NCBI GenBank assembly: GCA_003697105.1
Contig: RFFQ01000090.1
Span: 1-46,920 of the forward strand
Origin: Gemmatimonadota bacterium
GTDB taxonomy: Bacteria > 4572-55 > J002
DNA length: 46,920 nucleotides
Direction of reading: 5' to 3'
Below, one piece after another: positions 33,519 through 37,400 of the stretch. A program made the translations under genes and the position numbers. The notes below the pieces were generated by a model, which worked only from the letters and a program-made list of their open reading frames with translations, ran no database searches and was not told the origin of the DNA. How positions within the stretch are numbered: the first letter of the stretch is position 1; each line of letters opens with the position of its first letter.

Positions 33519-34688
33519 ATGCACAGTACGATTCCCATGAGTTTTGTAACCAAAGCGGCTCAAACCCCAGATGTTCTCTTTGCCATCATGAAAGCGATGG
33601 CAAAAAAGAAGATGTTTTACCACTTTACGGATTATATGGCGTCCCAACATAAGCCGCTCCGGCTGGGTCAAATTAGCCTCAAGATTACCAATGTGTGCAA
33701 CTTGCGCTGTAAAATGTGCGGACAGTGGGGCGAAAGTGGTTACAACCATGATAAATCTATGGCAGAACTGAAAGATGTGGTCCCATTGGAAACGTATAAG
33801 CGCATGGTGGATGAAGTCAAAGACGATAAGCCGTTCATTTACATTTGGGGAGGCGAACCGTTTCTTTACCCGGATTTGGTGCCTTTGCTCCGGTACATGA
33901 AGGAAGCCGGTTTAATGGGTTCTGTGGTGACCAATGCGGTCAAACTGGAAAAATACGCCGCCGAACTGGTTGACATTGGTTGGGATGCCTTCATGGTTTC
34001 GCTGGATGGTCCAAAAGACATCCATAATGAAATTCGGGGACATAAAGATAGCTATGACAAAGTCATTAACGGTATTACCCGACTAAATGAAGAAAAGCGG
34101 AAACAAGGAAAGAAAAAACCGTATACCATGATTTTGACCACCGTCATGCGGGACAATCCCCATGCGTTGTTCGATGTCTTCAAAATTGCGGAAGAGATTG
34201 AAGCCAGTTGTGTGGTGGTCTATTATTGCTGGTTCACCACAGAAGAGCGGGTCAAAGACCATACCCGCCAGATGCAAACCCGCTTTAACATTACGCCGTG
34301 GTCGGTGCATGGCTATGTTGCCGATTGGCATAACGTGAATGACCGGGAGCTTCAGGAGAGTGTGAAACGCATTAAATCCCACAAATGGAAAATGCCTTAC
34401 GTCTTCTATCCCGAATTGGAGATTGAGGACATCCCCCGATACTACAATGAACCGGGGAATTTCTTCGGACATGACAAATGTATCTCGATCTACACCACCG
34501 CAGAAGTCATGCCCAATGGGGATGTGGCAACCTGTCGCGATTACCCAGATTACATCACAGGCAATATCCGTGAAAATTCCATCAAAGAGATTTTCAACAA
34601 TGACAAATACTGGAAATTCCGCAACTCCATCAAAAATGAGGGGATGTTACCAATCTGTGCCCGCTGTTGCGGATTAATGGGGTTTTAA
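33519..34688 (+). CDS. Radical SAM protein with SPASM-type C-terminus
   Basis: Radical S-adenosylmethionine enzyme of 389 residues. The 4Fe-4S motif is C60-NLR-C64-KM-C67, followed by the SAM-binding IWGGEPFLYPDLVPLL and MVSLDGPKDIHNEIRG. The C-terminal part has further cysteines (GHDKCISIYTT, GDVATCRDYPDYITGNIREN, ICARCCG) in the arrangement of a SPASM/Twitch auxiliary cluster domain. Such proteins modify peptides or act on small molecules; no precursor peptide gene is evident next to it. Strong ribosome site (AAGGAGAG). Confidence 0.9.
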   Translation: MHSTIPMSFVTKAAQTPDVLFAIMKAMAKKKMFYHFTDYMASQHKPLRLGQISLKITNVCNLRCKMCGQWGESGYNHDKSMAELKDVVPLETYKRMVDEVKDDKPFIYIWGGEPFLYPDLVPLLRYMKEAGLMGSVVTNAVKLEKYAAELVDIGWDAFMVSLDGPKDIHNEIRGHKDSYDKVINGITRLNEEKRKQGKKKPYTMILTTVMRDNPHALFDVFKIAEEIEASCVVVYYCWFTTEERVKDHTRQMQTRFNITPWSVHGYVADWHNVNDRELQESVKRIKSHKWKMPYVFYPELEIEDIPRYYNEPGNFFGHDKCISIYTTAEVMPNGDVATCRDYPDYITGNIRENSIKEIFNNDKYWKFRNSIKNEGMLPICARCCGLMGF

Positions 34689-34714: not shown

Positions 34715-34752
34715 TAAAAAAACGCCTCGATCTGAATGGATCGAGGCGTTTT
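34715..34752. terminator. Bidirectional intrinsic terminator
   Basis: AAAACGCCTCGATC / GATCGAGGCGTTTT, a 14-bp perfect stem with a 6-base loop and A/T flanks. It ends both the radical SAM gene and the convergent thiol-redox operon, whose last codon (TAA 34766-34768) lies 13 bases away. This placement supports the extended selenoprotein frame as the true operon end. Confidence 0.92.
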
Positions 34753-34765
34753 GCTATGTTGTGAT

Positions 34766-34957
34766 TTATGCAGATGGTGAAGATGAGGTTTCCTCTATCT
34801 CCAGGGGATCAACTGCAACGGTGTTGTCGTGCCGTGGAACCTCCACGTTACAGGCTTCGCCCATTCAGGTGGGCACCCCCATCGCCGGAAAGACCCAGCG
34901 CATCAGGATAAACCAACCCGCAAAAATTAACAACACGGAAAAATCTTCAAATTGCAT
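34766..34957 (-). CDS. Small membrane selenoprotein (candidate, TGA read as Sec)
   Basis: The start is ATG 34957 with TAAGGAG five bases upstream, that TAA being the OsmC stop. The frame gives MQFEDFSVLL, a membrane helix (about 8-26) and WVFPAMGVPT, then TGA (34865-34867), then MGEACNVEVPRHDN and an acidic Ser/Glu tail to TAA at 34766. Read through, it has 63 residues with Sec at 31 and a cysteine at 35 (U-x-x-x-C). A 15-base perfect hairpin with a GGU loop follows the TGA at SECIS distance. If TGA is a real stop, the product is a 30-residue membrane peptide. No family name is claimed. Last gene of the thiol operon. Confidence 0.7.
34833..34847 (-). promoter_or_regulatory. Bacterial SECIS-like hairpin of the small selenoprotein
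   Basis: In the RNA, CGUGGA-GGU-UCCACG, six perfect pairs. The loop begins 24 bases after the UGA, inside the 16-37 range described for bacterial SECIS elements, and starts with G. The A-GGU-U apex resembles the GGU loop of E. coli fdhF. A weaker lower stem (34828-34852) extends it. Confidence 0.7.
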
Positions 34958-34966
34958 GGGTGCTCC

Positions 34967-35404
34967 TTAGGGTTGAACGACAATTTCAGGTTCTAGGTGG
35001 ACGGCGGTTTTCATGGAATTGGAGATCAAACAAACCTTTTCCGCTTTCGTAATGATGCGTATCGCCCGGTCGCGTTTATCTTCGTGGGGAATGACAATGC
35101 GCGGTCGCAACGTGATTTCGGTAATCATAAACCCGTTTTCGGTCTTTTCCAGCACTCCTTCGGCACTGGAGGAGTAGCTGGTAAATTCCAGTTTAGAGTT
35201 TTCGGCAATCGCCAAAAAGGTGGTCATCAAACAGATTTCCGCCGATGCCACAAATAGATGTTCTGGTGACCAGATGCCGGGATGTCCTTTCGGGAACTCC
35301 GGAGGTGTTGCGACTTCTATATCAGGCAGACCCTCACTGGAGAGGATACCTTTCCGTTGTTCATCCCACCGGAGACTCGTCGTATAAATATGTTTATCTG
35401 CCAT
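34967..35404 (-). CDS. OsmC/Ohr family peroxiredoxin-like protein
   Basis: OsmC-family protein of 145 residues with the two family cysteines, C58 (SPEHLFVASAEICLMTTF) and C125 (AEKVCLISNSMK), and the glutamate in SPEHL. OsmC/Ohr proteins reduce organic hydroperoxides or handle persulfides. Selenocysteine forms of OsmC exist in other bacteria; here both positions are cysteine codons. The ATG lies two bases after the PDO stop, and its own stop is part of the ribosome site of the next gene. Confidence 0.9.
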   Translation of the reverse strand: MADKHIYTTSLRWDEQRKGILSSEGLPDIEVATPPEFPKGHPGIWSPEHLFVASAEICLMTTFLAIAENSKLEFTSYSSSAEGVLEKTENGFMITEITLRPRIVIPHEDKRDRAIRIITKAEKVCLISNSMKTAVHLEPEIVVQP

Positions 35405-35406
35405 TA

Positions 35407-36141
35407 TTATTCCTCTGATTCCACCGAATTTAACACATTCTGAATACCGGCAATCAATTGCTGCTCGCTGGGCTTACCGAGAATTTCATTTCCCCCATTG
35501 ATCAAGGTTTGCGGGACGCCTCGCGTTTGATATTTTTGCACCAGATGGGGAAACTCACCGGCCATAACCATCTCTGCCCGAATGTTAGAGTTATGCAATG
35601 CCATTTTTTGAGCAAGCTTCACGGCTTGCGGGCAGTGCGGTCAGGTAGGAGTTACCATGACCTCCAAAACGACCGGCGCCTCAACCTGTTGCAGTGATGC
35701 TTTCGTCTGAGAAGAAAGTGCCGGTAACTCGCCACCAATCATCTGAAGTGACTCCAGAAATGCCGGAAATTCGTATCCCCCGGGCACACCGTAAATCCGC
35801 ACATTGGTATCTTTCCTTTCCCGCAGGATGACCGTTGCCGGGATTTTATCAACCCCGTATTTTTGGGCAATGGCGGCATCTTTTTGCAGGTCATAGACTT
35901 CCAGTCGGATATTGGGGACTAAATGGGCAATTTCGGTCATCAGAGTACGGGCGGTTTCGCACGATTCACACTCGAATTCTTGGGTAAATTGCACCAAGGT
36001 GATTTTGGTATTTAATTCCTGAAGCTCATTTTTCACCCGTTCTTGTTGTTGTTCATTCAACAATTTGAATTCAAAGGGCTTTGAGCAGGCAACTAACAGC
36101 ACAAACACGGGTATAAGCATGAGATACGTTATTGATTTCAT
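35407..36141 (-). CDS. Lipoprotein PDO-type disulfide oxidoreductase, selenoprotein (TGA = Sec)
   Basis: Two-thioredoxin-fold protein disulfide oxidoreductase (PDO, glutaredoxin-like) of 244 residues when TGA 35641-35643 is read as Sec. Lipobox LLVAC (Cys 19) places it on the envelope; most PDOs are cytoplasmic. Fold 1 has C58-ES-C61 in FTQEFECESCETAR and the cis-Pro loop DKIPATVI. Fold 2 has VMVTPT-U167-PH-C170-PQAV and RGVPQTLIN. Normal PDO proteins read TPTCPxC here, so Sec replaces the nucleophilic cysteine exactly. Without read-through, the protein stops before its second active site, and the remaining 78 codons form an orphan frame that continues in perfect register. A SECIS-like hairpin follows. 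The start overlaps the DUF1858 stop (ATGA). Confidence 0.88.
35612..35629 (-). promoter_or_regulatory. Bacterial SECIS-like hairpin of the PDO selenoprotein
   Basis: In the RNA, GCAAGC-CGUGAA-GCUUGC, six perfect pairs. The loop begins 18 bases after the UGA and has G as its second base, both within the bacterial SECIS pattern. A further UGCC / GGCA lower stem pairs outside it. The element lies inside the coding region, as is usual in bacteria. Confidence 0.72.
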
Positions 36142-36347
36142 GGATTTTCCTCAAGCAAACGGTTCATCTCTTCCAAAATTTCATCTAAATTTTTGATACC
36201 CTTTTGGGCGGCGGCTTCACCTAATGTACCCCAGATGGCATCCCCACAAGCCAAACATCGGATGTTATAGGTGCGCAGGGGTTGGATCAACTGCGGATAA
36301 TTTTCCACAATCTCTTCGATGTAGGTATCAGCAGTGATTTTCGCCAT
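36138..36347 (-). CDS. DUF1858 domain protein
   Basis: Small protein of 69 residues formed by one DUF1858 domain: ITADTYIEEIVENYPQLIQP, then the C31-LA-C34 motif, then a helical end. In other proteins this domain occurs alone or beside redox or hybrid-cluster modules and is suspected of metal or thiol chemistry. Ribosome site AGGAGG seven bases before the ATG. It overlaps the PDO start by four bases. Confidence 0.85.
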   Translation of the reverse strand: MAKITADTYIEEIVENYPQLIQPLRTYNIRCLACGDAIWGTLGEAAAQKGIKNLDEILEEMNRLLEENP

Positions 36348-36361
36348 GTTGCACCTCCTGA

Positions 36362-36829
36362 TTAGGATTGTGCCCGAAGTTCTTGTTCGATACGCTCATC
36401 CATCTCACTGGAGATCGATTCGACAACCGGCATGGCGGACGTTGCCGCCGTGGTTTGTCTTCGCCAGTAGAGCAGAATTAAAATCACCATGATCACCCCC
36501 AAAACCAGCATAATCACGGGCATGATCCACGCCACCATATTAAAGCCTTCCCGGGTGGGGATCGATAAAATCTGGCTGCCATATTCGGCGATATAAAAGT
36601 CCACGATTTCATCTTTGGATTTACCTTCTTCCGCCATTTGATTGACTTCGCGGCGCATGGTCATTGCAATGTCGGATTCATGATCCGCAATGGGAGACCG
36701 CCAACAACACGGCGCCAGCAATTCTTGCTGTGCTTCGGCAGCAACTTTTTTCTGTTCTGGGGTCAGTTCCGCATAACTCGTCGTTGCGAAGACTAGCAAC
36801 GTAATTAATAGCCATCTGACACACTTCAT
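36362..36829 (-). CDS. CcmH-like membrane thiol protein
   Basis: Protein of 155 residues: signal peptide ([20 protein letters not shown]), a periplasmic CcmH/NrfF-like three-helix domain with ADHESDIAMTMRREVNQMA and VDFYIAEYGSQIL, a membrane helix at about 98-122 and a polar tail. The canonical LRCxxC heme-thiol motif is replaced by LLAPC41-C42-W, a vicinal cysteine pair. CcmH reduces apocytochrome c cysteines; no other cytochrome c maturation gene is in the window, so it may have been recruited to this redox operon (inference). The start overlaps the DUF6132-like gene's stop. Confidence 0.82.
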   Translation of the reverse strand: MKCVRWLLITLLVFATTSYAELTPEQKKVAAEAQQELLAPCCWRSPIADHESDIAMTMRREVNQMAEEGKSKDEIVDFYIAEYGSQILSIPTREGFNMVAWIMPVIMLVLGVIMVILILLYWRRQTTAATSAMPVVESISSEMDERIEQELRAQS

Positions 36830-37035
36830 GTGTTCACCTCCGGGTGGGGTTGTGATGATTCACGGCGCTTTTTCGGAGAATCCCAGCCGAGTATCAAGCC
36901 AAATAAGGCTCCGTAAAGCGTGCTGAACCACGGATTTGCGGTAATAGGGCATGTGCCGCTGAGGCAACCCACGTATTGGTAATATAAAAATCCGGCTGTC
37001 GCACCGAGAACAGTAAAAATAAGTCCCTTTTTCAT
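36826..37035 (-). CDS. DUF6132-like small membrane protein
   Basis: Protein of 69 residues with two membrane segments (about 3-20 and 36-52) joined by a conserved loop, [20 protein letters not shown] (C24, C29). This cysteine-containing loop is typical of a small family found beside thioredoxins and sulfur-transport genes in FCB bacteria (recalled). Overlaps its neighbours by four bases on both sides. Confidence 0.78.
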
Positions 37036-37400
37036 GCGAATTGGTCTAACACCTCATCAAATTTATTTTTTAGAGCCGGTTTCGGTAATGCCCCGACCAC
37101 TCGATCAATTTCTTCACCATTTTTGAAAAAAATCAGGGTTGGAATGCCCCGGATGCCAAATTTTTGCGGCGTCTGCGGGTTGTCATCCGTATTGAGCTTA
37201 CAAACTTTGATCTTATGTTGGTATTCCGCGGCAAGCTCTTCCACAATGGGTCCCACCATCCGGCACGGACCGCACCACGGTGCCCAAAAATCTACCAACA
37301 CTGGTATGTCAGATTTTAATACATCGGTTTCAAAGGAGTCATCGGTTACGGTGACGGCAACATGGGTTTCATCTCTTTGTCCCTTGGAAAATAATCCCAT
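37032..37400 (-). CDS. Thioredoxin
   Basis: Classical cytoplasmic thioredoxin of 122 residues with [20 protein letters not shown] (C43, C46) and the cis-Pro loop [11 protein letters not shown]. It has a short charged N-terminal extension and no signal peptide. First gene of the operon trx-DUF6132-ccmH-like-DUF1858-PDO(Sec)-osmC-small Sec protein. It could supply electrons to the envelope members through a membrane partner, and to the Tpx proteins (inference). Confidence 0.94.

Follow-up and report, generated by a model that had tools for sequence, protein, structure and literature searches.

On the minus strand of the window (by which we mean the whole stretch of DNA analysed here, 46,920 nucleotides) lies a gene that appears broken. 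Reading of the sequence places a single in-frame TGA at codon 167 (35643-35641, minus strand; context VTPT-TGA-PHCP). The question is whether this TGA marks a damaged gene or encodes selenocysteine (Sec), and what kind of protein the complete frame would give. We regard it as very probable, from sequence comparison, that the UGA is read as selenocysteine in a lipid-anchored PDO, by means of SelB and the downstream hairpin.

The PDO gene and its predicted lipoprotein signal

The features of the gene are as follows.

35407..36141, minus strand: gene of the putative lipoprotein Sec-PDO, 244 codons plus the stop TAA (35409-35407)
35641..35643, minus strand: TGA, very probably read as selenocysteine (U167, motif U-P-H-C), from the sequence, the same-codon TGA in relatives and the co-occurrence of selB
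35612..35629, minus strand: SECIS-like hairpin with a 6-bp stem and the 6-nt loop CGUGAA, from folding, shuffles and shared geometry
36085..36141, minus strand: predicted signal peptide and lipobox, residues 1-19, LVA-C, from the sequence and a homologue scan

In domain 2, the TGA takes the place of the first catalytic residue, and domain 1 carries CESC. The motif TPT-TGA-PHC described in an earlier note on this DNA is borne out, and the frame is continuous around the TGA, as that note had claimed without giving the strand. The AlphaFold2 model, for which 36 aligned sequences (the window's and those of the relatives' loci) were the input, has a mean pLDDT of 93.4 and consists of two tandem thioredoxin folds, both intact, which agrees with the claim that the two folds are complete. 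PDOs of Pyrococcus and Aquifex are its first structural matches, with 1a8l (Pyrococcus PDO) at the top (TM 0.80/0.86). The protein reaches 236.3 bits with the NCBIfam model TIGR02187 (PDO_seleno_TRX; curated cut-off 185) over model positions 2-208 of 209. The minus-strand gene has every formal Sec-PDO feature that was tested; the variation is its lipid anchor.

A selenocysteine PDO, as the earlier note had read the gene, is not new in itself. NCBIfam already has it, and so does a survey from 2006, which found it in Carboxydothermus and Symbiobacterium (PMC1794560); published selenoprotein tables name it "homolog of AhpF N-terminal domain", and later reviews give it as TIGR02187 UxxC (PMC9312934, PMC13188914). 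The known proteins of Carboxydothermus hydrogenoformans (ABB15282.1) and Symbiobacterium thermophilum have the same two folds, the UxxC in domain 2 and the same Sec position, but the window's protein differs from them by a lipoprotein signal and by an operon with envelope redox genes. Archaeal and Aquifex PDOs (1a8l, 1j08, 2ayt, 2ywm, 2hls) share the fold, the domain order and a CxxC in each domain (TM about 0.8); unlike the window's protein, they have Cys in place of Sec, are cytosolic and have no lipid anchor. The AhpF N-terminal domain (PDB matches 5h29, 6il7, 4xvg) likewise has two thioredoxin folds in tandem, with the catalytic CxxC in the C-terminal one, but in AhpF this module is fused to a flavoprotein, and the first of its two domains no longer has the CxxC. 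Periplasmic Dsb/CcmG-type proteins and Sec-containing DsbA/DsbG-like proteins, the latter already known (PMC13188914), stand for the same envelope thiol-disulfide chemistry, but they are other families, and the Sec-PDO passes none of their models' cut-offs.

The N-terminus reads MKSITYLMLIPVFVLLVACSKP, and the lipobox LVAC (residues 16-19) closes the hydrophobic stretch ITYLMLIPVFVLLVAC; by sequence pattern, the n-region, the hydrophobic core and the lipobox ([LVI][ASTVI][GAS]C) of a lipoprotein are all present. When 143 PDO homologues with Sec or Cys, the window's included, were scanned for a lipobox or an extended hydrophobic stretch at the N-terminus, no signal peptide was found in 142, and the window's protein was the sole positive. 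Outside that set, inspection by eye revealed a second lipoprotein Sec-PDO (L210:1444-2184, plus strand; N-terminus MDGERMRRAAAAVTAAALVCLVAACGRTK) with the lipobox LVAAC, the TGA at the same site (TQS-TGA-PYCP) and 35% identity to the window's protein. Its genome belongs to another phylum, with only one other member in the collection searched. A lipoprotein signal on a PDO is indeed unusual, as had been noted, and its second occurrence in another phylum supports the lipoprotein reading. A quick tree joins the two lipoprotein PDOs, but both are on long branches and the join may therefore be false. The gene after the L210 Sec-PDO resembles the ABC ATPase SufC.

The signal peptide might also be a misreading, with translation starting at an internal TTG (L27/L28) and giving an ordinary cytosolic Sec-PDO. 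Nearly all homologues begin about there and have no signal peptide. Nevertheless, we consider an internal start unlikely: the start codon at 36141 (ATG) overlaps the stop of the preceding gene, a common arrangement in operons, the N-terminal stretch is a textbook signal with a lipobox, and the independent L210 protein has the same layout at its low level of identity. The lipid-anchored form is new, whereas the Sec-PDO family itself was already known.

Probable selenocysteine at codon 167

The genome holds all parts of the Sec machinery for which the earlier note had proposed a search: selA (585 bits), selB (384 bits), tRNA-Sec (selC; anticodon tca, 63 bits) and selD, which itself has one TGA. 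A search of bacterial and archaeal genomes, each species represented once, with the degenerate DNA pattern [VIM]TP[ST]-TGA-P-x-C-P matched at least 116 stretches, 111 of them usable as PDO genes. Among the first 80 pattern matches listed, 78 were genuine PDO frames in which this codon is TGA; by our own estimate, about 15 chance matches are expected for the whole collection. The same codon is TGA in at least 112 other loci from about ten phyla (Chloroflexota, Acidobacteriota, Bacillota, Actinomycetota, Armatimonadota, Gemmatimonadota, Thermomicrobiota, Zixibacteria and others), and such a recurrence, together with the high share of real frames, is more than chance. The 111 stretches, L024 and the window make up our set of 113 Sec-PDOs. 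L031 was rejected as a TGA-PDO, its TGA being an ordinary stop, and no PDO relatives were found in viral contigs.

In some relatives, Cys replaces the TGA at the catalytic codon. The alignment at residue 167 that had been proposed gives TGA in more than 110 loci and Cys in the other relatives, and the random stops elsewhere in the gene that would speak for decay were not seen. Of 42 genomes with a TGA-PDO, 38 had a selB above the cut-off, compared with 2 of 11 with a Cys-PDO (Fisher p 7e-6) and neither of the two genomes with chance pattern matches; the four TGA-PDO genomes without selB may reflect gaps in draft assemblies. The quick tree forces at least four changes between Sec and Cys and gives no support to a single origin of Sec in PDOs.

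The UGA could be a conditional stop, so that low selenium yields a 166-aa N-terminal thioredoxin domain that is functional alone. Domain 1 with its CESC is complete before the TGA. However, the relatives give no hint of such a use, and any Sec gene is expected to be truncated under selenium shortage; we therefore hold this reading to be improbable. Still less probable is a nonsense mutation, a pseudogene or a sequencing error at the Cys codon. TGA is one base away from TGC or TGT and the draft assembly has 199 contigs, but damage or error is at odds with the recurrence of the TGA across phyla, including in a single-contig genome, with the complete Sec machinery and with a remaining frame that is intact and gives a good structural model; the earlier note had likewise judged a nonsense mutation unlikely. 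That a suppressor tRNA or an altered code inserts another amino acid is scarcely credible, as no point in its support was found, tRNA-Sec with selA, selB and selD suffices, and the TGA read-through frames of the window, besides the two genes reported here, appear to be shadow frames.

Selenocysteine insertion at codon 167 also calls for a SECIS element. In bacteria, its apical loop lies about 16-37 nt after the UGA and has a G in loop position 1 or 2. The PDO hairpin (GCAAGC-CGUGAA-GCUUGC) fits this rule in loop distance and G position: it has a perfect stem, starts 11 nt after the UGA and has a G at loop position 2. The 6-bp stem of the earlier note is confirmed, but the loop starts 17 nt after the UGA, not 18. 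Its minimum free energy has a z of -2.3 against dinucleotide shuffles and -1.3 against synonymous-codon shuffles. When the 57 nt from the UGA were folded and a G at loop position 1 or 2 was scored, 69% of the 113 Sec-PDOs had such a loop-G hairpin versus 21% of the synonymous-codon shuffles; in 11 Cys-PDOs, the values were 18% versus 14% of shuffles. Loop length and spacing of the window's hairpin are common to 27 other loci. In 12 of these, all cells of the stem alignment are paired (slid controls, 22-61%) and, at one pair, both bases are substituted in six sequences; four of the six stem pairs are invariant, and the covariation is therefore modest. The Sec-PDO of the single-contig genome (L024) has no hairpin that fully fits the simple SECIS rule, and for an individual gene such as this one or that of L210 the hairpin test cannot settle the matter. 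A search against Rfam gave no match.

The operon and a second TGA gene

Further features surround the PDO gene.

37032..37400, minus strand: thioredoxin TrxA, WCGPC, first gene of the operon (Pfam/NCBIfam)
36826..37035, minus strand: DUF6132 small membrane protein, CxxxxC (Pfam/NCBIfam)
36362..36829, minus strand: CcmH-like cytochrome c maturation protein (PF03918)
36138..36347, minus strand: DUF1858 (hybrid-cluster-associated redox disulfide) protein, overlapping the PDO start by 4 nt
34967..35404, minus strand: OsmC-family protein, two Cys kept; the nearest model, SACOL1771 family peroxiredoxin, scores under its cut-off
34766..34957, minus strand: gene of a putative small single-helix selenoprotein, 63 codons plus stop, TGA at codon 31 (GVPT-TGA-MGEAC)
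34865..34867, minus strand: TGA (predicted Sec) of the small protein, conserved in relatives
34833..34847, minus strand: predicted SECIS element of this gene, a 6-bp stem capped by GGU with the loop 23 nt downstream of the UGA, from covariation and a model
34719..34752, minus strand: terminator-like hairpin of 14 pairs at the operon end

Seven genes form an operon on the minus strand, in the order TrxA, DUF6132, CcmH-like, DUF1858, Sec-PDO, OsmC-family and small selenoprotein, followed by the terminator; neighbouring genes have 4-nt overlaps or gaps within about 15 nt. In the CcmH-like protein, APCCWRSP stands at the site of the usual CcmH motif, LRCxxC. A radical SAM/SPASM gene (33519-34688, plus strand) is convergent with the operon and has a two-way terminator in common with it; the best model of its product, a tungsten-enzyme maturase, is far below the cut-off. 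A conserved PDO neighbourhood was considered and rejected: across about 110 Sec-PDO loci, thioredoxin is near two, OsmC near one and thioredoxin reductase near five, and the window's operon is therefore not a general PDO operon.

The small membrane protein reads MQFEDFSVLLIFAGWFILMRWVFPAMGVPT-TGA-MGEACNVEVPRHDN... and, with its relatives (motif LPxLGVxTU), looks like an undescribed selenoprotein family. A profile built from three rows matched the family in 45 of 386 widely spread genomes, with exactly one TGA in 34 of 46 matches, and relatives occur across many bacterial families; none were found in plasmids. In 31 sequences inspected, the site is TGA in 30, Arg in one and Cys in none. We discarded UxxxxC as a constant feature of the family: 23 members have it, seven retain Sec but lack this Cys spacing, and the remaining one has Arg where the others have Sec. 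This last member (L183, around 1548, plus strand; GISTRMSDGC) comes from a genome (G289) that has selB, and the Arg is possibly a loss of Sec. selB exceeded the cut-off in all 30 genomes with the small gene, compared with 15 of 30 without it (p 6e-6).

In 11 members, picked largely for a common SECIS geometry (6-bp stem, 3-nt loop with G first, 23 nt after the UGA), the stem is paired in 98.5% of cells and each of the six pairs shows changes in both bases, with each slid control at most 47% paired. Among all 23 members first folded, 78% have a loop-G hairpin versus 24% of synonymous shuffles. A covariance model from ten other genomes found the window's site as its sole strong match (34.3 bits, E 1.4e-6).

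Pfam and NCBIfam (June 2026) gave no convincing match to the family except for thioredoxin in one member. The table of 119 families in a 2026 review has no recognisable entry for it (PMC13188914), and a motif search of the literature accessible to search gave no match. A conserved TGA, a covarying SECIS, co-occurrence with selB and the lack of a family model together are what we expect of a new selenoprotein family. Gene callers would overlook it, because the frame breaks off near codon 30.

Thioredoxin is found with several relatives. L186:976-1611 (minus strand) is a natural fusion of a small selenoprotein with a WCGPC thioredoxin, and in the flanking DNA covered here thioredoxin genes are near the small gene in L048, L162, L173, L181 and L187. 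In L024, a relative directly adjoins the Sec-PDO, and in L048, small selenoprotein, thioredoxin, OsmC and Sec-PDO stand in a row; the L048 contig is labelled Candidatus Puniceispirillum, and this organism label may be wrong. DUF6132 is near the small selenoprotein in two genomes (window, 36826-37035, minus strand; L165, 2037-2280, plus strand), and its CxxxxC has the spacing of UxxxxC in the small selenoprotein.

A possible selenocysteine redox module of the envelope

In our model, the hairpin just 3' of the codon-167 UGA would direct SelB with Sec-tRNA to decode it, and the Sec-PDO would be exported and anchored on the periplasmic face. A Ser at position +2 directs lipoproteins to the outer membrane, and the +2 Ser of this protein would place it there. 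The Sec may attack disulfides or peroxides of envelope proteins and be regenerated by Cys170 and the CESC pair of domain 1, with electrons ultimately coming from the thioredoxin system. The protein might be an envelope disulfide reductase or isomerase, or an electron donor to a peroxidase; a selenol-disulfide relay on the envelope, as the earlier note had imagined, is plausible.

The operon content suggests a single thiol-redox module for the protection or maturation of envelope proteins, e.g., c-type cytochromes. The adjacent CcmH makes cytochrome c maturation one candidate process, and OsmC makes peroxide defence another. The small selenoprotein has K/R C-terminal of its helix and an acidic N-terminus, and its Sec is therefore predicted to face the cytoplasm. 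The two selenoproteins probably face different sides of the membrane, and this topology prediction gives no support to a direct relay from one to the other. Tentatively, and with somewhat less than even confidence, we propose that the operon is a dedicated Sec envelope redox module, in which a lipid-anchored Sec-PDO on the outer face is combined with an undescribed small selenoprotein that couples cytosolic thioredoxin to the membrane.

In sum, a seemingly broken gene is very probably the lipid-anchored envelope form of a known selenoprotein, in an operon with a second TGA gene. With at least 116 stretches and 111 usable PDO genes, Sec-PDO is far commoner than the two cases of the 2006 survey. 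The small family, if true, would be a new selenoprotein family even without joint action with Sec-PDO. Our data suggest that, in at least two phyla, a cytosolic selenoprotein family has been relocated to the envelope. This raises the question of which extracytoplasmic disulfide or peroxide chemistry merits selenocysteine.
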